Source: Anadara kagoshimensis (lineage: Eukaryota > Mollusca > Bivalvia > Arcoida > Arcidae). Taken from it: a DNA stretch of 64,000 nt. The stretch spans positions 34,128,245-34,192,244 of the forward strand of contig CM037862.1 in assembly GCA_021292105.1 (NCBI GenBank). The letters run 5' to 3'. Of this stretch, positions 1-34,030 are shown piece after piece. Numbering within the stretch: position 1 is the stretch's first letter; every line of letters begins with the position of its first letter. Both the position numbers and the translations under genes were made by a program. The notes below the pieces were generated by a model, which worked only from the letters and a program-made list of their open reading frames with translations, did no database searches and was not told where the DNA came from.

Positions 1-2345
1 TTTTAGCATTTCTCAAGCATAATCAATGGCTCACTGTACACTTACCCCTGTTTTTTTTAGCATTTTCCAAGCATAATCAATGGCACATATTGTACACTTA
101 CCCCTGTTTTTAGTATTTCCAAAGCATAATCAATGGCTCACTGTACACTTACCCCGGTTTTTAGCATTTCCCAAGCATAATCAATGGCACATATTGTACA
201 CTTACCCCCATTTCTAGCATTTCCCAAGCATAATCAATGGCACATATTGTGCACTTACCCCTGTTTTTAGCATTTCCCAAGCATAATCAATGGCATATAT
301 TGTACACTTACCCCTGTTTTAGCATTTCCCAAGCATAATCAATGGCACATATTGTAAACTTACATCTGTTTTTAGCAGTTCCCAAGCATAATCAATGGCA
401 CATATTGAAACTTACCCCTGTTTTTAGCAGTTCCCAAGCATAATCAATGGCATATATTGTACACTTACCCCTGTTTTTAGCATTTCCCAAGCATAATCAA
501 TGGCACATATTGTAAACTTACCCCTGTTTTTAGCATTTCCCAAGCATAATCAATGGCATATATTGTAACTTACCCCTGTTTTAGCATTTCCCAAGCATAA
601 TCAATGCACATATTGTAAACTTACCCCTGTTTTTAGCAGTTCCCAAGCATAATCAATGCACATATTGTGCACTTACCCCTGTTTTTAGCATTTCCCAAGC
701 ATAATCAATGGCACATATTGTAAACTTACCCCTGTTTTTAGCAGTTCCCAAGCATAATCAATGGCACATATTGTAAACTTACCCCTGTTTTTAGCAGTTC
801 CCAAGCATAATCAAGCACATATTGTACACTTACCCCTGTTTTTAGCATTTCCCAAGCATAATCAATGGCACATATTGTGCACTTACCCCTGTTTTTAGCA
901 TTTCCCAAGCATAATCAATGGCACATATTGTAAACTTACCCCTGTTTTTAGCAGTTCCCAAGCATAATCAATGGCACATATTGTAAACTTACCCCTGTTT
1001 TTAGCAGTTCCCAAGCATAATCAATGGCACATATTGTAACTTACCCCTGTTTTTAGCATTCCAAGCATAATCAATGGCACATATTGTAAACTTACCCCTG
1101 TTTTTAGCATTCCCAAGCATAATCAATGCACATATTGTAACTTACCCCTGTTTTTAGCATTTCCAAGCATAATCAATGCACATATTGTAACTTACCCCTG
1201 TTTTTAGCATTTCCCAAGCATAATCAATGCACATATTGTAAACTTACCCCTGTTTTTAGCATTTCCCAAGCATAATCAATGGCACATATTGTACACTTAC
1301 CCCTGTTTTTAGCATTCCAAGCATATCAATGGCACATATTGTAAACTTACCCCTGTTTTTAGCATTTCCCAAGCATAATCAATGGCACATATTGTAAACT
1401 TACCCTGTTTTAGCAGTTCCCAAGCATAATCAATAGCACATATTGTAAACTTACCCTGTTTTTAGCATTTCCCAAGCATAATCAATGCCACATATTGTGC
1501 ACTTACCCTGTTTTTAGCATTTCCCAAGCATAATCAATGGCATATATTGTACACTTACCCTGTTTTTAGCATTTCCCAAGCATAATCAATGGCACATATT
1601 GTAAACTTACCCCTGTTTTTAGCAGTTCCCAAGCATAATCAATGGCACATATTGTAAACTTACCCCTGTTTTTAGCAGTTCCCAAGCATAATCAATGGCA
1701 TATATTGTACACTTACCCCTGTTTTTAGCATTTCCAAAGCATAATCAATGGCACATATTGTAAACTTACCCCTGTTTTTAGCAGTTCCCAAGCATAATCA
1801 ATGGCACATATTGTAAACTTACCCCTGTTTTTAGCATTTCCCAAGCATAATCAATAGCACATATTGTAAACTTACCCCTGTTTTTAGCATTTCCCAAGCA
1901 TAATCAATGCCACATATTGTACACTTACCCCTGTTTTTAGCATTTCCTAAGCATAATCAATGGCACATATTGTAAACTTACCCCTGTTTTTAGCAGTTCC
2001 CAAGCATAATCAATGGCATATATTTTACACTTACCCCTGTTTTTAGCATTTCCAAAGCATAATCAATGGCACATATTGTAAACTTACCCTGTTTTTAGCA
2101 GTTCCCAAGCATAATCAATGGCACATATTGTAAACTTACCCCTGTTTTTAGCATTTCCCAAGCATAATCAATAGCACATATTGTAAACTTACCCCTGTTT
2201 TTAGCATTTCCCAAGCATAATCAATGCCACATATTGTACACTTACCCCTGTTTTTAGCATTTCCTAAGCATATCAATGGCACATATTGTAAACTTACCCC
2301 TGTCTTTAGCAGTTCCCAAGCATAATCAATGGCACATATTGTACC
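1..2345 (-). repeat. 53-bp minisatellite built from a phosphatase exon end plus its 5' splice site
   Basis: About 45 imperfect head-to-tail copies of a unit of ~53 bp; the array is cut by the left edge of the window. Read on the minus strand, each unit is 45 nt of coding sequence ([10 protein letters not shown] then M or L, then LKTG) followed by 8 nt of intron beginning GTAAGT. The copy at 2298-2342 is the authentic end of the phosphatase signature exon; the rest lie in the intron just downstream of it. Two unit types alternate irregularly: GAACTG (Leu, like the true exon) and GAAATG (Met). Single-base changes and 1-3 base losses occur between copies, so this is not a simple assembly collapse. 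No associated CRISPR-like spacers are present. Confidence 0.95.
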
Positions 2346-5300
2346 TGTTCTTCCACAACCAGCACTAAAATAAAACAAATTAATAAGTTATTGACATTAT
2401 CGTCTTTCCATCCTCACAATGATAATGATAAACAGTGGGAATAATTTTTAAACTCAACATGAATGTCGACACTGCCAAAAATGACACCCAGAAGAAGGTA
2501 CACCCACTATTAATGTATATAACTTTCTTGTGAGATTTTAATTTTGGCTATACAATGTTCTGACATGCTTTATACCTTCATGTTTTGTATTTGTAGAAAT
2601 TGTAGACAATGTTTGTAAAATGACTTTGGATATAAGGTAATATTTTATAAACCAGAAGTAGATGTCAAATAATTGTATATATGATCACAACCAAAGTAGG
2701 GAAGGGAGGGAAGGCAAAACAATTGATACTGATATGACTAGATGTATCATTATAGAACAGTAATTTATGTATTTTATATCAGTTTTGTAGCAATTAATTC
2801 CATTGACTAATGGGCAACCAAGTGACACAAACTAATGGCGTGTATGAACCGACCTAGCAATACACGAGCTGACATTGGACCAAGCAGGCAATAAACAGTT
2901 ATGCGCCTTCAACGAAAAGCCCCTATGGTCATAATTGGGTTTGGTCCAATGATATAAAAGATATAGCTACTTATGTACAAGGCACTATGAAGATTTATGG
3001 ACATTCCATTGGCCCTGCCTGCAGGTCAGGCTGTATCAAAGTGATGGTCCATATCCTGGCTCTTGACCAGTCCATAAACCTTCATATTGCCCTGTGCATA
3101 AGTAACTATAGCTGAAGTACTTGATAAACACATTACTATTTTTGTAGCTCCTGATGGTAACTTTATGTCATTACATATGAGCACAGTTTTATATAATGAT
3201 GGTGGAGATTGCCAAAAAAAACATGTGGTGTATGGGGGAAAATTTTTGTTTCATTATTAAAGATTTTGTTTTGTTATTATATTTCATATAGATAATTTTA
3301 AGTCATTACAATATATCATACTTATAATCAAAATGGCTTGGTCAATTAAACTCATAATCAATGGTCATTTAACACATTGAAAAGTACTATAAACATGATT
3401 AAATATATATACATGCATATTTTTTTACACTTTCTATTTTTTATATTTAAGGTGTCTAATTACAGAGTATTTTCATGCATGACATGATGAAATTATAACT
3501 CTGTAGGCTCTAAATCTTGGAGGTATAATTGTGAAAAGCACTGGCCTATGTATCACTGTGCATTTCATCAACTAGGTTAATATCCCACTCAGGCATATCC
3601 TAGTGTGAGAATGTTGTCAGTTAAGTTAGGTTAGAGGTTTTCTCCAGGCACTCATGTTTCCATCCAGAATTCAAGAACTAACTGCCTCAATATAATAGAG
3701 AGAGTCTTGACCAGAGCATAAAATATCATTACTCCATTCTACTCCACATACACACAGATCTTCTAGCTTAAAGTGTACTTACCTACAATGAACAACAACA
3801 GGGGCAAAATCTTTGTCCCGTTGTCGCATAACACGCATCTTAGCTATCATTTCAAGGATAACGTCCACATCATCTGGGATTCCATGATCAGGCCAACCTG
3901 TGTATTGGAACTGTGTTATCCGTAACGGTCCCTCAGTTCCTTTGTACACATCCATACATCTTTCTATACAATCATCAGCATTGGCTAGGTTACTCTCATT
4001 TACCTAAAATGTGAAATACACTGCTTAAATACATGTTATGTTTCAAATATTGGTAGCCAAAATAAGTATCTAGCTAATAATTTCTGAGAAATTCTAGAAA
4101 AAAGTAACCTATTTCAGCTAATGTGTGAAAAAATACTTTAAAAACAACAATATTTCACAAATTTAAGAAATTTGGCAACAGGGTACTTATAATTTGAAAT
4201 TTGTGGAAATCTAGATAATAGATAGCGAAAGTCAGCAAGAAGATTTCAGAAAATTCTGATTTACATCATAATATTTATTATGAACAACAATTCTTCAATA
4301 ATTCAAAGTACTTTAATCAACAGAACAATTTATAAATCAATGTAAAAAGTGATGCAAGATGGTTGATTTTGGAGATGATGTGTGGTGTAGACATGTCAAA
4401 TACATTATAAACCAAAGCTCAGGCTTAAACGGGAATTACACCATGATTTAAAGATCAAAACTTAAACCTAAAATGGACTCATAAGAAGGGTATTCTGATG
4501 CCGTTACAGAAATCTGAAATAAATTTTTTATCATTAAATATTATTATTATATTATTATTATTACCAATTTAACTCTGATATCATTAAATGTTGCCTCTTC
4601 ACTAGCATTTTCAGGCCAGTAGCATGCACATTTTTTCTGCAAGAGAAAAATTGAATTTTCATTTAAAAAAATCAAAGCTAAGTAAGCTAATGTGGAATTG
4701 ACTGAGCTGCTTAATCAAAACAATATAGTGCAGCATTTCTGTTCCAAAATTTGCCATAATATGATACTAGTTTCTAACCTCCCATTTAGAGAGTGAAGTG
4801 GAATGGAGTTATGGTTTTTCATGCCCCTGTCAAGATTCTTTCATTCATATTGAGGTTGTTAGTTCTGTGATGATGCAGGAAACTCAAGAGTGCCTTGAGA
4901 AAACCACCAACTTTAAGCAAGCAATTAAATTACAAATTTCTTCACACTGTCATTGTCTATTGAAAGTTCTGGTTTCATGAACCATTCCAGAACTGAACAC
5001 CTGAATAAAGTGGATTTCCTCCACAATTTCAGAACTGAACACCTGAATTAAGTGAAAGTTTCTTCACTAGGTGTCAAACAAGATCATTTCACTCCACATT
5101 TCAGAATAAATCTGGTTGTAGGCAGTTCCACTAGATAACTCATCTGTATGGGTTGGTCCATTAACTTAACATTTGACACTAACACTAGTGCAGATACTGG
5201 GATTACAATTATAACTCTTTTTCACTTTGTTCTGGTGAGCTCACAATGTACAGTAAAACCTCGATTCATCGCCACAATTTGTTCAGTCAAATTTTGGCGT

Positions 5301-8300
5301 TATAAAGGGGTTTGGCGATAAATTGAGGGAGGGTCATGAAGAAAAACATAAACAAAATGGATTTTGGTACTTCAAAAAAAAGTGCGGCGATAAGCGAGGT
5401 GGCAAAGTTATCGAAGGGCATTATAACAAGGTTTTACTGTATGTATATTTCCCATGTACACTTAAAAAAAGAGCTTGCCTGCACATCTGTTCCCATCGAT
5501 AAAATATCATAACCAAATAAGCTAAATTTTGTCAATCAAAATTCTTTAGTCAAACCATTTATTACTGGACTCTTACTCTTTCACATCGGAACTATACTAC
5601 ATTCTAGACAAGCTTTAATAAATTTTACCTTTCCCATTTCAACTTCTTTACATGCCATAATAACAACCTTGACCTTGTACTGCCATAACATCCTCCAGTA
5701 ATCATTAAGTGTATGTGGTAATGGACCTTGTGAAGCAATATAGGCGGCCCTGCCCATAGGACCCTGCATTGTAATAAAAAGAAAATTGTAAATTATAATC
5801 TAATCAAATGACATTGGACTAATGTGAGGTACACACTAAGAATTTTGTAGAGCAATTTAGGTTGCTCAACTCACATGCAGCACAGGATGTTGTTAGAAAC
5901 ATGTCAATTAATTCAAAAATGTAATGCATAATTTAGGGTCAATGTTACACAAACTGCGAGCACAAGGGTGAAAATAGGATGATGAAAATAATCAAATTTA
6001 AACTATCATAACGACAAATATCAACTTTAACACTCACTGCTTAGAATGATGGCTAGTTCAGTGGTTGAATATGTACATGCTCACAAGTTTTGTTTCCTTA
6101 TTTTTTCACAGTCCCTGACAAAACAGTTGTTTCCTAGGCATTGCTTCTAAATATCAAGAGTCCAAAGGACTCCAATAATGTTGAAATAAGAGCCTAAATT
6201 TTCAAGTATCCAAAATTCATTTTTTGGCTTTATTTATAATCATGGCTATCTACACTTGATTTTAAATATCACTATTATATTTCAAGTGAGTGGGAGTACT
6301 CTTAACAATAGGAGGAAGATACATTGAAGAAAAAGAAGGAAGTTACTGTTACAATATTCATTAAACAAGGGGCATGAAATTTCCTGTTGTCACAATTGTT
6401 ACCAATTTGGTCAACTTTAAGAGACCTTTATCATAAAATTGTGTCAATGTATTTGTAAGTGTAATTTATAAATGTTCCTTGATTATCAAACAACATTATA
6501 GGATTCTAATGCAAACATTTTGATTGGACCTTGACTGCAGTTCTGTTTTGCTGTTGGAGTTAAGATGTCACATGGATTCTAGATTAAGATTATGTCATGT
6601 ATTACTGTATTACTGGAACATACAAACAGTAATGACCTAGCTACTTGGCCTTTAATTTAAATATATAATATGTTTATTGAGGGAACACAGATGTTTATTT
6701 CCACTAATTACAAATTTTAACATTCACTGCTTAAAATGACAGCTAGCTCAGTTGCTGATGTTATGTATGCTCTCAAGTTCTTCGACATAAAACATGGATT
6801 TTACTATTGCAAATACCAGTTACCTGGCTCTGCACGAGTTACCAGGTAGACCTCAATTTGTGACCGTAAAATCCATGTTTTTATAGTCATAATTCTTCAA
6901 ATACAAAACAGTTATTTCCTAAATTTACATGTTGAACATAGTGACCTTTACACCAAGAGTGGCGCAATTGGTGACAAATTATATCAAATGTGCAAAAGGA
7001 ACTTTTGTTAATACTGTTCACTGCTTTGTATTAGCACAGACATATTTAAGCGATTTTTCTCAATACAAGTGATTAGCACATCTTTATTTTAGAGCACCAA
7101 CTATTTGTTTGTACTCAGAGTCCCTTATGGGTAATTTTAGCACATTTATATTTTACCGGAAAGATCTTGCTAGAAGCAAAAGCGCTAAAATAAAACAGCC
7201 ACTAAAATTTCACAGTGTACAGTACCAGATTCTTCAACATATGTATAATATGTCCCAATAAAGACAACATTTTTCCACTGTATAGAGATATAGAGTATAT
7301 ATTAATAGAAGATGCACATAATAAATTTGTTTTGACTAAGCTCAAATAACTGAAAATAACAAAAAATTATTCAAATTTGTTAGTTTTCTTAAGGAAATTT
7401 CCCATGTTACACTGTCACAAACACAATGACACTAAAAGTAATATCTCTGCTTTCCACATCAATCACTCAAAATTATATTTATATATACTGTATATATAAA
7501 TATAGTATTGTGTAGGTGGTCACAATGAAAGTTTACTGTTTAATATAGGTTCAGGACAGAATGACAGGGTCATATTTATTATGCTGTCAAATACAAAATC
7601 AGTTATCCTCAATTTATGATTTTTTCAGTAGTATTTAACAATAAACTGACATTAAAAATTTAAATTGAACATGAAGTTTTACTTTGATACAGATCTTCAA
7701 ATACTTATAAAAGCCATCATGCTTCAGAGAGTTTGCAATATCCTGATCATGTTGATAGACAAACTAATAAGAATTCTTAAAGTAATTGACACCTTGCTAA
7801 AATTACTCTTTATAATTTGAATAACTTGTAAATGAAAGTCTATATAAAGGATGGTCTAGAGGTGTCTGTTCCTTGGGTATTTCTGTCCATGATATTATGT
7901 TTGCATGTTTAACTTCCTCAGATCACAGGAAATTGCAGGATTTTATCCTACATTTTAAAACTTTTCTAGGGGAGCACACCCTCATACCTCCCTAGTTCTT
8001 TCATCCACATCAATAGACAATTGGAATCCCCCTTTCCCAATATTCCAGGGTCTGTCACGGTTATATATGATGTATGTATATACAAACCTCAATAAAGCTA
8101 GCATTTATATAATCAGATCCCTCTGTATTTGGTATTTCATCTAAAGTTACCCTGTGTGAATCATCTGTAAAAAAAATATAAAAAACAAGAATTACACCTA
8201 CATGTACTTATATGATCCATCATTTTCCAAACTTGATGGTGAGGTTAGCATAATGTGGGAACATTACATCAATAACTCAAAAGTGGTTACTGGAATTCAA

Positions 8301-11300: not shown

Positions 11301-14300
11301 AAAACCACCCAACTAAAATTGTCAAGTGAACTGACAAACTTTCTGCTTGGCCAATGATAGACTAGTTGCCAGGTCAGGCAACAGGACAGAATTATTGTCA
11401 GGACAGACAAGTTGCCAGTAAGAGAGGAGTTGAATATGCAATAATTTCTGTTTATAGTCTATACTTACAAGGTACAATATCTCTGTATCTATTTTTCTTT
11501 ACATTGTATGGCAGTTTACCAAATGCAGCTGGAAATGTCTCATCTTCCTTATTCTTTGAAGCTAAATCCCTCAGAACCTGAAGAGATAAAATAATAAATT
11601 CCTGCATTGAAGACCTTGTTTTCATACAAATTGGTTTGTTCATAAAACTCAAGATTATATCAATTATGTTTACATTTCAATAATTTTGTTTTGAAACTTA
11701 GTTTGAGACAAATGATGATCATTATGACTACATTTATATTACTGGTAGCAAAAATTCCAAATGGTTACTAATTTTTGAGAAATTCTTTCAAAAAGTAACT
11801 TTTTAAGAAATTTGTTGAAAAATATCTGACCTTAAAAAGAGCTTTAAATATCACTGATCACATTTGTGACATCACTTGCATAATGAATACACACATCATC
11901 ATAATTTATTGGGCTGTTCTATTCACCTCACATACATGTTATATACATCAGCAATTTAACTTTTTAATAATTTGCCAGGATTAAACAAGAGGCCCATGGG
12001 CCTGATACGCTCACCTGATAACTAATGCCTAGCTAATAGATTTAAAGAAAACATACATACTAAACCCCAAATAGATTTAAAGAAAACATACATACTAAAC
12101 CCCAATGACTTTTTTTTATTACATCATGATAACCGTTGTATCAATACCTACAACATTCTAGTATACATGCCTATAAAAAAAGTTAATAGTGTTCAAGATA
12201 ATTAACCATTTCAGTATTGTTTCACATTTGTGACCTTGACCTTTGAACCCATGACCTTTTTCTATACATCAAAATGATCGTTGTATCGATACCTACAACA
12301 TTCTAATATACATGCCTATACAAAAAGTTTATATATTTCGAGATAATTAAACATTTCCGTATTGTTTCGCATCTGTGACCCTTGACCTTTAAACCCATAC
12401 CTTTTCAAATCAAATGATTGCTGTATCAATACCTACATCATTCTAATATACATGCCTATACAAAAAGTTTATAGTTTTTGAGATAATTAACCATTTCGGT
12501 ATTGTTTTGCATCTGTGGCCTTGACCTTTGAACCCATGACCTTTTTCTTTACATCAGAATGATCATTGCATCAATACCTACAACATTCTAATATACAAGC
12601 CTATACAAAAAGTTTACAGTTTTTGAGATAATTAACCATTTCGGTATTGTTTCACATCTGTGACCTTGACCTTTGAACCCATGACCTTTTTCTATACATT
12701 GTATCAATACCTACAACATTCTAATATACATGCCTATACAAAAAGTTTATAGTTTTCGAGATAATTAACCATTTCGGTATTGTTTCGCATCTGTGACCTT
12801 GACCTTTGAACCCATGACCTGTTTCTATACATCAAAACGATTGTTGTATCAATACCTACAACATTCTAATATACATGCCTATACAAAAGTTTATAGTTTT
12901 CGAGATAATTAACCATTTCGGTATTGTTTCAAATCTGTGACCTTGACCTTTGAACCCATGACCTTTTTCTATACATCAAAATGATCGTTGTATCAATACC
13001 TACAACATTCTTATATACATGCCTATACAAATTGTTTATAGTTTTTGAGATAATTAACCATTTCGGTATTGTTTCCCATCTGTGACCTTGACCTTTAAAC
13101 CCATGACCTTTTTCTATACATCAAAATGATTGTTGTATCAATACCTACAACATTCTGATATACATGCCTAAACAAAAAGTTTATAGTTTTCGAGATAATT
13201 ACCCATTTCAGTATTGTTTCACATCTGTGACCTTGACCTTTGAACCCATAACCTTTTTCTATACATCAAAATGATCGTTGTATCAATACCTACAACATTC
13301 TAATATACATGCCTACACAAAATGTTTATAGTTTTCGAGATAATTAACCATTTCGGTATTGTTTCGCATCTGTGACCTTGACCTTTGAATCCATGACCTT
13401 TTTCTATACATCAAAATGATTGTTGTATCAATACCTACAACATTCTAATATACATGCCTATACAAAAAGTTTATAGTTTTCGAGATAATTAACCATTTTG
13501 GTATTGTTTCGCATCTGTGACCTTGACCTTTGAACCCATGACCTTTTTCTATACATCAAAATGATCGTTGTATCAATACCTACAACATTCTAATATACAT
13601 GCCTATACAAAAAGTTTATAGTTTTCGAGATAATAATTATAATCAGAGGTAAAAAAAATTAGGTCACGACCTTCACAATTGACCTTGACCTTTGAAGATA
13701 TTAACAAGAAGATGTCAAAACTAAAAACCCCATGTCATTATCTGGTCAAATAGTCAAGTTATAACAATTTGAAGCTATTTTACGATTTTTTTCAAAATTA
13801 AACGCAAAAACGCGTAACCTATTTTTTATCCGAATTTTACAAAATGAACAAACTAAAGGCTTAAGACCCTAGAGAAGCCAAATATCACATCAGATTTTTT
13901 CTCCAATCAGTACTTTCGGACCTTGACCTAGTTATGGTAGCCATGGCAATGCCAGGAACAAATCTGAATTGCACCGGCCCATATATACTTCTGACAAAGT
14001 TTCATTAAAAACTGTCCAGTAGTTTCAGAGGAGAAGTCGAAAATAGGTGTTAACGACGCACACACGCACACACTCACATACACACGCTGTGCTATGCCAT
14101 AAGCTCACATGACCTTCGGTCAGGTGAGCTAAAAAAGCTATCCCAGTAAATCCAATGTTCAATCAGAAATGCAGTCTGGAGGACATTCTAGCACAAGTTT
14201 TGTAAAACAGGGGCCATGTTTTCAAAACATGGGGCAACATTATAACATACCAGTAGCTCAATTTAAATTTTGTTTTATTTGATTGAAAAAGATCAGTATT

Positions 14301-28748: not shown

Positions 28749-31700
28749 TTAAATTGTGTTATTTGAGTTTTCTTTATTTCTTTCATAGCTCTGGATTTCA
28801 TTCTCTTCGGGGGTTTCGTCATTTTTCTCTTCGGGGTTTTCGTCACTTTTCCCTGTAGGGTTTTGGTCACTACTCTCTGTAATCTCCGACTGCTGGTTAT
28901 TGGCGATCATAGATATTGTTACTTGACCATTTTTCTCCAAAGCTTTCGCCGCTTTCTTTTTTTTCAAATCTGTTTTTCTGGATACTGCGCCATATATCGG
29001 CCACTTTGACAAAAACAAGCGACATTAGAAGGGCAGAAGCGAAAGTCAGAAAAATTGGCGCAACAATACCAGCATCTGAAAAAAAGATATAGATTAAGCA
29101 TGTATTTAACAATAATCACAGTTACTTAAGTCACACCACAGAGAAAAATCTGACTGTAAAAGAAAATTTTAAAAATTAATACGAATCAAATTAAAAAACA
29201 TCCCACTTTGCACCAGTATTTGTAACGGATTTATAATCATCTATACACCATTTTCAATATAAATAGCAAGGATTTTATTGGTCTACATGTATTTGGCGTG
29301 AGGTAATTACTACATGCCTAAAATTACTTTTTGTTACATATATTGTATACTATATATATAGCGAAAAATATACTACATGTGACGCGTCCTTACTAAATTT
29401 GGCGTACGGTTCTTTTTATTACATATTGCATAGTTTCTACATCTAAGTACATATAAGGGTTCGACTTGACTCCCCGACAACCTGTCGCCACAGTAATTAT
29501 ATTTTGCCACATAATTTGACATAAATAGCAATTTATAGTCAAATATATTGATTTGCAAGCGCAATGTGTTCCGGACATTTTATATCTATGTTATTCAGAG
29601 AGAAAAAAACTGATTAAATACCCATTGGCCAGTTTAAATATAAAAATACTAGTACCCGTGGATTTTTTCCACATTTGTACGTTTTGTCTTGGTAGCTTAA
29701 AGTGTAAGAAAATCTGAATGAGCACTTACGATCATAAGTCTTCTCAGCAGTAACCCTCAGCTTGAAACTAGACTTAGATTCGTTTTTGGATGAAGTATTA
29801 TTCGCTTTCCTTCTTTGGTCATCAACTTGTATGTCAAAATACTGGTTAGAACCAGCACAAACCTTTTTGGGTTTCTTGTCCAAACACGAAAATGTCTACA
29901 AAGATGGTGAAACAGCATCGTATAAATGCAAACACAAGTACTTTATTGAAACAAACCACTTATTTGGGCAGTGTACAGACAATGCAATATAAATTTGACA
30001 TGAAGATGCTTGTCTTTCGAATTGCCTTAATATTAAGAGAGAGACCCATTGCAATGTGTAAATACAGAAAATGGAGTATACCAGCGGACCATGTGATCAA
30101 TACCTCTTAACGTTTGTGCTGGACGTTTTGGAAAACGTTTACGTCGAAATTTCCCGGAGTAACGTCAAAAACTAAAAAAACGTGAATTGAAGCGATTCAA
30201 TCCCCAATGGAAATAATTGTTCCGCAGAAACGTTATGGGATATCAAGTGGTATGCTGGTGAACCCCGTTTAAAGTTTGGTTGGTTTGTTAAATGTTGCTT
30301 AACGTCACATCAGCAATTTGTCAGCTATTCGCGACGAGAACTATTTTGTTAATCTCTATGGATTAATCTATGAACAAGTTTTTGTATGTATGTGAAGTGC
30401 AGTGCGAGTGTGTTTTATGGTCTGGTCTGTACTAGCGCGCACTCAGGGCGACTTTAACGTGCCAGCTCACAAAGTCATTACGTCGCAGACAAGCGTCCCA
30501 CTCTCCCAGTCACATTATACTGATACCAGGTGAACAAGTAAAGGTCAACAGCAAGGAAAGGATTCCCGTTTAAAGGGCTTCTTATGTGTCAAGAGGTAGA
30601 ATCAAAATTTTAAGGATTGCGGAAATAAAGTTCGGCATTATACCAGGAACAAAACGGTTTAAATGTTTTGTTACAAAGTTTTATTTACTTTTTTCTATAA
30701 GTCCTGTTTGAAACCAAATGAATTTACATGAGCTATTATTACCATTACCCATTTGCTTATTATGCATATACGTGAAATGACATCCATTGGCTATATATAA
30801 CTTCTATAGCCGTATAAGGCAAACAAATAATAGCGCGCCAGCATTATTCAGTTTCCGTACTTCCAAACCATTTTAAATCAACTCAAGCCCTATTTTTCAA
30901 ATAACATTGCAATACAAGCACATGTCACCTACCATATTAGGCTCACTGCTGTAACCAAAGTAATATCCCAAACTTATTCCACAGTCTTTGACATCGTACT
31001 CCAATGTTTCCACGCATATTTTGTATTTATCAAGTACATAGAAACCTTTACCAAGGAAACCATATTTACAGCATATGATTGGCTCGCCACTGTAGACAAC
31101 CTCAAAGTACTCCAGCGCGTCTAGGGTGTAGATTTTGTAGGAGGTACAGAACGCCAATGAGGACTCGGAGCAGCCGTCGTTACCAAGTGATGTTTCAACT
31201 GCAAACAATTTGTAAACTTATTTCAACATGCAAGCAACATCCAAACAAAATACAAATTTTAAAATGGTTTTTCTTCAAACACTTTTACTGTACATGTATA
31301 TATACATATCCATTATCTTAATGGCTCATTACTACAACTATGTAATGATTATATTTCGCGGAGGTTTTAATTCCGCTGTATTCACGATCAAGTGCTTCTG
31401 CGAAAATAAAACCTCCCCAAAATAAAGTCTGTATACGCGAGTTTCTAGAACGCGAAAATAACAAAGTGAATAAATCCACTATCGCCAAACCGCTTGGGTT
31501 TTTAATCATTTCCTATAAATAATACAGGTTGGGCAATTCAAGCAAAAATACATCCAATACAGTATTATTCCTGGCTTATAGATACACAAACTCGATAAAA
31601 ATATAAATATAAACAAGAGGCCCATGGGCCTGATACGCTCACCTGATAACTAATGGCCAGCTGATAGATTTAAAGACAACATAAATACTAAACCCCAATG

Positions 31701-34030
31701 ACTTTTTTCTTTACATCATGATAACCGTTGTATCAATACCTACAACATTCTAGTATACATGCCTATACAAAAAGGTAATAGTTTTCAAGATAATTAACCA
31801 TTTCAGTATTGTTTCACATCTGTGACCTTGACCTTTGAACCCATGACCTTTTTCTATACATCAAAATGATCGTTGTATCGATACCTACAGCATTCTAATA
31901 TACATGAACCATAAAAAAGTTTATAGTTTTCAAGATAATTAACCATTTCGGTATTGTTTCGCATCTGTGACCTTGACCTTTAAACCCATGACCTTTTTCT
32001 ATACATCAAAATGATTGTTGTATCAATACTTACAACATTCTAATATACATGCCTATACAAAATGTTTATAGTTTTCAAGATAATTAACCATTTCGGTATT
32101 GTTTCACATCTGTGACCTTGACCTTTGAACCCATGACCTTTTTCTATACATCAAAATGATCGTTGTATCGATACCTACAGCATTCTAATATACATGAACC
32201 ATAAAAAAGTTTATAGTTTTCAAGATAATTAACCATTTCGGTATTGTTTCGCATCTGTGACCTTGACCTTTAAACCCATGACCTTTTTCTATACATCAAA
32301 ATGATTGTTGTATCAATACTTACAACATTCTAATATACATGCCTATACAAAATGTTTATAGTTTTCGAGATAATTAACCATTTCGGTATTGTTTCACATC
32401 TGTAACCTTGACCTTTGAACCCATGACCTTTTTCTATACATCAAAATGATTGTTGTATCAATACTTACCACATTCTAATATACATGCCTATACAAAATGT
32501 TTATAGTTTTCAAGATAATTAACCATTTCGGTATTGTTTCACATCTGTAACCTTGACCTTTGAACTCATGACCTTTTTCTATACATCAAAATGATCGTTG
32601 TATCAATACCTACAACATTCTAATATACATGCCTATACAAAAAGTTTATAGTTTTCGAGATAACTAACCATTTCGGTATTGTTTCACACCTGTAACCTTG
32701 ACCTTTGAACCCATGACCTTTTTCTATACATCAAACTGATCGTTGTATCAATACCTACAACATTGTAATATACATGCCTATACAAAAACTTTATAGTTTT
32801 CGAGATAATTAAGCATTTCGGTATTGTTTCGCATCTGTGACCTTGACCTTTGAACCCATGACCTTTTTCTATACATCAAAATGATCGTTGTATCAATACC
32901 TACAGCATTCTAACATACATGCCTATACAAAAAGTTTATAGTTTTTGAGATAATTAACCATTTCGGTATTGTTTCCCATCTGTAACCTTGACCTTTTAAC
33001 CCATGACCTTTTTCTATACATCAAAATGATCGTTGTATCAATACCTATAACATTCTAATATACATGCCTATACAAAAAGTTTATAGTTTTCGAGATAATT
33101 AACCATTTCGATATTGTTTCACATCTGTGACCTTGACCTTTGAACCCATGACCTTTTTCTATAAATCAAAATGATCAATGTATCAATACCTACAACATTC
33201 TAATATACATGCCTATACAAAAAGTTTATAGTTTTCGAGATAATAATCATAATCAGAGGTAAAAAAATTAGGTCACGACCTTCAATTTTGAAGATACTAA
33301 CAAGAAGATGTCAAAACTGAAAACCCCATATCATTATCTGGTCAAATAGTCAAGTTATAACAATTTGAAGCTATTTTACGATTTTTTCAAAATTAAACGC
33401 AAAAACGCGTAACCTATTTTTTATCCGAATTTCACAAAATGAACAAACTATAGGCTTAAGACCCTAGAGAAGCCAAATATCACATCAGATTTTTTCTCCA
33501 ATCAGTACTTTCGGAGAAGAAGATTTTTTAAGATTTTTGCACCCCTAGGTCACCTTGACCTAGTTATGGTAGCCATGGCAACGCCACGAACAAATCTGAA
33601 TTGCACCGGCCCATATATACTTCTTACAAAGTTTCATTAAAATCTGTCCAGTAGTTTCAGAGGAGAAGTTGAAAATAGGTGTTAACGACGCACACACGCA
33701 CACACACACGCTGCGCTATGCCATAAGCTCACATGACCTTCGGTCAGGTGAGCTAAAAAGGTCGATTACTTCGGACTTTGATAATAAAATCAAATTAATA
33801 TGTGTTAATGTCATGTTAGGGAATATCTGAATATTTACATGTACGTCAGAAGATCAGCTTAAAACGAATGACGATATCTATAACTTGGTGACTCAGTGAA
33901 GAATTAAAATGTGCAGTATGTGTCATTATGATACCAGTACTAGAAACATACCTATTGTTGTGTAAGAGTCCATTTTATTCATGTTCACCCCCAAAACAAA
34001 GAGGGAAGCAACCAGGCTTATACAAAACAT
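28749..34030 (-). CDS. Small single-pass membrane protein of unknown family
   Basis: I do not recognise the family. Four coding exons (transcription order): 33952-34030, 30933-31198, 29730-29895, then a last exon from 29075. Frame is kept at each junction. Residues 1-20 or so look like a signal peptide (MFCISLVASLFVLG). The ectodomain (about 27-172) is Cys-rich in its first half, with sequons NMT, NNT and NES. A hydrophobic segment (IVAPIFLTFASALLMSLVFV, about 174-193) is followed by a basic stretch, so type I topology is likely. In the frame used upstream, the protein ends at 28897 (229 residues). Just before this, at an A8 tract (28952-28959), a second frame opens and runs 68 codons to 28749 with an acidic, Pro/Glu-rich tail (NPTGKSDENPEEKNDETPEE). 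Which end is real is not settled. Intron 1 contains the 2.15-kb tandem-core element. Confidence 0.7.
30268..30545 (+). repeat. Interspersed repeat, plus-strand copy
   Basis: Starts 'agtttggttggtttgttaaa', then 'cttaacgtcacatcagcaat', 'gtcagctattcgcgacgag', 'ggattaatc', 'gcactcagggcgactttaa', 'gctcacaaagtca'. It is the inverted partner of 9770-10060. It lies in an intron of the membrane-protein gene. Confidence 0.65.
31610..33759 (+). mobile_element. Non-autonomous tandem-core element, copy 2
   Basis: Same ends as copy 1 (TAAACAAGAGGCCCATGGGCC to GGTCAGGTGAGCTAAAAA), almost the same length, and ~10 core units. Copy 2 has ~30 bp near the right end that copy 1 lacks ('gaagaagattttttaaga', about 33514-33550), and lacks a short stretch copy 1 has near 13680. 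It sits in intron 1 of the membrane-protein gene, antisense to the gene. Confidence 0.8.
31690..33245 (+). repeat. Tandem array of ~145-bp units with nuclear-receptor-like sites, copy 2
   Basis: About ten units with TGACCTTGACCTTTGAACCC or close variants (some TAACCTTGACC). One pair of neighbouring units is repeated almost exactly as a two-unit block (compare 31860-32000 with 32150-32300), pointing to recent unequal exchange inside the array. Confidence 0.85.

Follow-up and report, generated by a model that had tools for sequence, protein, structure and literature searches.

How does the splicing machinery pick a donor when dozens of near-identical, evenly spaced ones lie behind a single acceptor? 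A natural test of this question is found in a 64,000-nt stretch of the genome of the bivalve Anadara kagoshimensis (assembly GCA_021292105.1, contig CM037862.1, here C6:34128245-34192244; hereafter the window), where a tyrosine phosphatase gene on the minus strand carries a 53-bp minisatellite, with a splice donor in each unit, behind its catalytic-loop exon. The test case comes in two lengths, both with exons that look intact. Were use of the later donors to scale with their number, hardly any phosphatase could be produced; were it not to, the choice would depend on where a donor lies relative to the exon and not on its strength. From the comparisons below we think it probable that the array is a nearly neutral minisatellite in which a splice donor was captured, with splicing mainly at its first copy. 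Repeats of this kind are rare but have been described before, and the array is a genuine case of one rather than a new category. It illustrates that a minisatellite can arise from the end of a coding exon without change to the coding copy, and it probably does no harm as long as splicing does not shift to a later copy.

A minisatellite built on an exon end

On the sense strand, each unit of the array consists of the last 45 nt of the loop exon followed by 8 nt of intron, GTAAGTTT, and the units are arranged head to tail, as the first-pass annotation of the window had described. The exon end within copy 1 reads ..GCTTGGGAACTGCTAAAGACAGGG. Tandem Repeats Finder (TRF) reports a period of 53, with 44.8 copies and 93% matches, over positions 1-2343, which agrees with the earlier estimate of about 45 copies as far as the window is concerned; however, the partial copy at the window start is cut by the window edge and the array runs on outside. 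With neighbouring DNA included, it ends at C6:34128062 and contains 48 full copies plus 10 nt. The word GGGGTAAGT occurs 43 times in the 2.9 kb from exon start to next exon and once in the rest of a 164-kb stretch (both strands). As a donor minisatellite, the array includes the exon's natural donor and its units keep an intact one: GTAAG is present in all 48 full copies and in all 31 full copies of a second, shorter version of the array, and between exon start and next exon there are 49 and 32 GTAAGT sites, respectively, counting a relic donor in the intron beyond.

A role in shielding a long intron from early polyadenylation had been suggested, but this intron measures only 2.8 kb, and because the array makes up most of it (~89%), the premise is wrong. 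By word count, neither AATAAA nor ATTAAA occurs inside the 53-bp array, and two AATAAA words lie downstream of it.

Copy 1 as the coding copy

Copy 1 is identical in the two versions and has a G at position 39 that is found in no other full copy. Copy 1 alone behaves as coding sequence, as stops, missense changes and indels are found among the others. Indels in the exon part affect 25 of the 79 full copies, leaving 29 of 48 indel-free copies in the long version and 25 of 31 in the short one; an in-frame stop is present in five of these 54 (two long, three short) and missense changes in others, and the exon peptide is spelled by six long and six short indel-free copies, copy 1 counted.

The reading frame tells a similar story. 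Read-through past the loop exon is open to 2151, with a stop at 2148-2150, much as predicted beforehand. When each donor was joined in silico to the next exon, the frame stayed open for donors 1 and 3 in the long version and for donor 1 alone in the short one. The claim that the first few donors give readable products thus shrinks to these cases, and the claim that later donors disrupt the phosphatase holds for most of them, with donor 3 of the long version, which would add 35 codons, as the exception; that donor owes its frame solely to the loss of one base in the assembled copy 2.

The units are not exon-like, because not one of the 95 AG dinucleotides that lie in the array within the window is preceded by an acceptor-type pyrimidine tract: the highest preceding pyrimidine share is 0.60, compared with 0.71-0.75 at three real acceptors. 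The unrepeated first 22 nt of the loop exon include GAAGAA, which we take to be a typical exonic enhancer word. We infer splicing at copy 1 because that copy alone lies close to both the acceptor and the unrepeated 22 nt, and alone keeps the frame in both versions; as first proposed, the copy behind the acceptor is the real exon and the remainder are donor copies. If later donors are used now and then, the resulting frameshifted mRNA would probably be decayed.

Two versions of the array

A search of the genome (1.115 Gb) with the array and its flank, using a method that skips common words, led to one other place, C6:32358852-32360658. This second version has 31 full copies; its acceptor, copy 1, 3' flank and next exon are those of the long version, and the exon peptides are found in both versions in seven of seven cases, one of them with a one-residue difference. 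A protein search, run exon by exon with 150 of 176 candidates scored, revealed no third close copy of the gene, the next-best place reaching 60 bits compared with 167. That an unexpanded copy of the exon might be used instead, a possibility raised at the outset, finds no support in this search, in which both close gene matches carry the array.

Long and short arrays are closely related copy by copy. Copies 35-48 of the former pair one-to-one with copies 18-31 of the latter, with three differences in 742 columns, and copies 8-14 equal copies 4-10; the 17 surplus copies of the long version are located in the middle and nearer the exon. By eye, copies 2-7 of the long version resemble copies 8-13, a six-copy higher-order repeat.

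We consider the two chromosomal blocks that carry these arrays to be probably two haplotypes kept side by side in the assembly, judging from their layout. It is rather unlikely that they represent paralogues from a megabase tandem duplication, in which case array length would differ between genes and not between alleles. Both versions do lie on one contig in the same orientation, ~1.77 Mb apart, with 3.0% mismatch over a chained alignment of 102 kb in total; however, probes at C6:33.92, 33.50 and 34.48 Mb found partners at 32.16, 35.17-35.22 and 32.70 Mb, so that three of three were partnered at a distance of 1.67-1.78 Mb, with two of the partners lying before the probe and one after it. This pattern corresponds to two collinear blocks placed head to tail (C6:32.16-33.50 Mb and 33.92-35.22 Mb, extents from the probes), which is the look of haplotypes strung into one scaffold, and further twins (some genes and one array) on single contigs also speak against paralogy. 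Length variants had been anticipated, and two lengths are present in the assembly, 48 and 31 copies, on what are most likely haplotypes. Possible twins of the kind just mentioned were observed on contigs C3, C15 and C19.

That copy number or copy differences are read-error artefacts of the repeat is very improbable, even though 24 of the 32 single-base gaps of the long version fall in copies 15-34 and the short version has seven in 31 copies, as the two versions share their flanks and an ordered set of variant copies, an observation that also makes it unlikely that the array itself is an assembly artefact. The gaps crowded in copies 15-34 may be read errors or real, and some doubt attaches to the exact copy number and to the small gaps, among them the gap on which the frame of donor 3 depends.

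Origin of the array

A break point at short direct repeats had been proposed, with a similar word after each donor as evidence. The proposal fits, but that word simply belongs to the next copy, and the independent evidence stands outside the window, past the array. The 7-nt word TACAATA is found in the exon, starting one base ahead of the unit, and again after GTAAGTA in the unique intron, which contains GGGGTAAGTATACAATAAAC in both versions. When this relic donor is placed at the exon end, the two TACAATA words are 53 nt apart, the register of a 53-nt duplication, and the pair is consistent with an initial duplication between 7-nt repeats. GTAAGTAT stands in the last full copy, the sole one in either version with A at position 52.

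In the scheme that we propose, a single tandem duplication at TACAATA microhomology would have started the array, and unequal exchange would then have grown and shrunk it, chiefly on the exon side and in the middle. The ancestral, unexpanded intron would have begun GTAAGTATACAATAAAC, and GTAAGTATACAATA would be expected behind the loop exon. A decayed 49th copy was sought in the 68 nt between the last copy and the relic donor and was not detected, with 133 of 300 shuffles scoring as high; because these 68 nt align with the unit no better than shuffles do, part of the origin story is missing.

Other donor arrays in the gene and genome

Behind the next exon of the gene lies another array, whose units combine the end of that exon with its donor and a (GA)n tract (C6:34127681-34126772 and C6:32358472-32357576); 15 copies match a fixed word in both versions, the exon counted, 13 with GTAAGT and two with GTACGT. 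The same intron also has a 27-bp array of 3.2 copies with 100% matches, containing AAAGGTAAGT (L004 7739-7824), at no known exon. With a period of at least 15 and at least 2.5 copies as thresholds, 24 arrays were found in the 164-kb stretch, three of which carry GTAAGT, all in phosphatase sense; in 150 kb around the other version there are 29 arrays, and the same three carry it. One unit per array sums to 1.0-1.5% of the sequence, and many donors are expected to be caught by chance because the genome is so rich in minisatellites.

Arrays here turn over fast. In another intron, 2.7 kb from the 53-bp array, 42.7 copies of a 42-bp unit are present in the short version (C6:32363155-32364947), and at the same site, between the same flanks, the long version has 71 nt, less than two units (around window positions 4984-5054), a snapshot of array birth or loss.

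Beyond this gene, a 222-codon open frame at C1:14506200-14509278 runs into a 43-bp donor array and terminates within its first unit, where TACTGTCATATGTATATGTTTGG is followed by GTAAGTTC.., with at least ~50 matches. The 222-residue product has no Pfam match up to an E-value of 1, and its best PDB match, at 0.037, is unconvincing. Among the matches listed, one of three C1 arrays whose flanks were read adjoins an open-frame end, and the other two gave no clear picture. Together, the two neighbouring phosphatase exons and this open frame are the cases behind a broader idea, that 5' splice sites here repeatedly become donor minisatellites whose length would set the productive mRNA of each allele, which we regard as quite improbable.

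Genome-wide word counts are mixed. Three GGTAAGT words with gaps of 20-50 gave 8412 matches compared with 2962 for the reversed word, and CAGGTAAGT with gaps of 15-45 gave 685 compared with 255 for its control; for the anagram GTGGTAA and its reverse, however, the counts were 4644 and 5275, and matches inside one array are not independent. Among the matches listed, the donor word occupies three places on C1 up to 14.5 Mb and the anagram eight, four of them as single matches; from C1 to C3:42.8 Mb, the perfect donor word occupies 10 places, nine of them without a twin, and the control two. Outside arrays, GGTAAGT is as common as TGAATGG (25 and 28 compared with 28 and 27). We do not claim a genome-wide enrichment of donor arrays; measured against the word controls, there is no clear excess.

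Comparison with known systems

The closest precedents are the arrays of ABCA7 intron 18 and IFI6, compared with which the present unit is longer and includes coding sequence of a catalytic domain. According to PMC5954066, the variable number tandem repeat (VNTR) of human ABCA7 intron 18 is made of donor-bearing 25-bp units, and the natural donor of the exon belongs to the first of them. In the tissues compared there, ~2% of isoforms retain one unit, with a shifted frame, and increasing array length is associated with reduced expression and with skipping of exon 19, the next one. The two systems share an array at the intron start, a donor per unit, a unit length that is not a multiple of 3, differing array lengths and a second donor that shifts the frame. 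Unlike the present unit, that of ABCA7 starts at GT and lacks exon sequence, and length effects and isoforms were measured there, whereas our account is drawn from sequence alone. By analogy, a long array in the phosphatase gene may reduce output or provoke skipping of the next exon.

The minisatellite of human IFI6 (6-16) has a 12-bp unit in 26 copies and makes in-frame additions of four residues. According to PMC4526556, which cites Turri et al. (1995), two downstream repeat units of this minisatellite serve as alternative donors; PMC3618361 and PMC2572611 cite the same paper. Both there and here, repeat units offer donors to the preceding exon, but the present unit is 53 bp long, mostly out of frame, and in a catalytic domain. 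Where introns arise through tandem genomic duplication (PMC4974935 and others), the duplicated stretch likewise spans a splice signal; unlike that process, however, the present units carry no acceptor and an existing intron was lengthened, with no new one gained. A literature search at the level of titles and abstract beginnings brought no report of the present array to our notice.

Neutral repeat or bank of decoy donors?

An alternative to a near-neutral minisatellite is a functional bank of decoy donors, which would hold U1 small nuclear ribonucleoprotein (U1 snRNP) and make a length-dependent share of transcripts unproductive, such that alleles tune phosphatase output. We judge this unlikely. 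The existence of two array lengths speaks for it, and the ABCA7 array offers a parallel, with its length tracking lower expression and exon 19 skipping. The copy donors are also predicted to pair with U1: the computed energies are -10.3, -12.9, -10.0 and -6.7 kcal/mol for the four donor-type strings of the copies, compared with -12.1, -8.2 and -5.1 kcal/mol for three other donors of the gene. Finally, none of the 79 full copies shows a substitution in the donor hexamer, an outcome with a chance of 0.03 by columns or 0.05 by variants if the hexamer is named beforehand. However, 61% of random placements would be expected to give an unbroken invariant run of six columns somewhere in the unit, such that donor invariance is weakly unusual and the indication of constraint on the donor columns is weak. 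In addition, one-unit retention in ABCA7, the use of the second donor, was ~2% and constant across lengths, and donor arrays show no clear genome-wide excess over word controls.

Four points nevertheless weigh against a near-neutral minisatellite spliced mainly at copy 1. The invariant hexamer is a weak hint of constraint, and it is a little unexpected to find a second donor array directly at the following exon if ~1-1.5% of donors are caught by chance. The relic donor rests on its two ends, because the 68-nt middle is unrecognisable as a decayed copy, and the TACAATA of the intron may be what is left of a copy rather than an older word.

The phosphatase gene and minor observations

The gene is a PTP-PEST-like (PTPN12/18/22) tyrosine phosphatase by score comparison rather than by a tree, an assignment that covers the traced catalytic domain alone. 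A protein tyrosine phosphatase (PTP) catalytic domain with an HCSAGxGRTG loop is present (Pfam Y_phosphatase, PF00102, 108.8 bits compared with a cut-off of 20.9). Among the best 60 of 248 PDB matches, the top single-domain chains are PTPN12 (113.7 bits), PTPN22 (111.7) and PTPN18 (83.0), with the remaining PTP chains of ~300 residues at 70 bits or less; seven two-domain receptor PTP chains rank higher, at 117-122 bits, drawn from two stretches that taken singly score 54-63 bits each in the three alignments shown. The preceding exon, loop exon and next exon join in phase (Table 1), and the second exon downstream of the array, read by eye, has EQYMMAHIAIRDLF.. A scan of the window against Rfam gave no match at the gathering score, and a tRNA search found none.

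Table 1. Features of the phosphatase gene and its array (window positions, except where a C6 coordinate is given).
Feature	Position	Strand	Remarks
53-bp minisatellite, window part	1..2342	-	44 full copies and one partial (cyclic alignment)
Intron part of copy 1	2290..2297	-	GTAAGTTT; donor in frame in both versions
Loop exon, 67 nt	2298..2364	-	last 45 nt are array copy 1; follows ..TTTTATTTTAG
Acceptor of loop exon	2365..2386	-	pyrimidine-rich tract ..TTTGTTTTATTTTAG
Preceding exon, WPDHGIP to VVVHC	3783..4003	-	edges read from sequence
Earlier exon	4565..4636	-	edges read from sequence
Earlier exon, YIASQGP motif	5629..5763	-	approximate edges
Earlier exon, YINA motif	8088..8165	-	approximate edges
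Earlier exon, KKNRYRDI motif	11470..11568	-	approximate edges
Next exon after array, 78 nt (26 codons, in frame)	C6:34127747-34127670	-	

Three further sets of arrays were observed. A 73-bp array downstream has 101 copies at C6:34104306-34111740 and nine at C6:32343431-32344100; its units have CTAAC, often with TTTTACAG or TTATACAG, and resemble a branch point and acceptor, and no exon was seen beside it by eye. At C2:63662926-63663310, the units of a donor array read ..TTCTTCGTCACAG directly joined to GTAAGTG, an acceptor-donor junction that presumably resembles recursive splice sites. Within the window, positions 12105-13634 and 31698-33244 each contain 10.7 copies of a near-identical 145-bp unit, an arrangement that, to our mind, resembles mobile elements with a tandem core.

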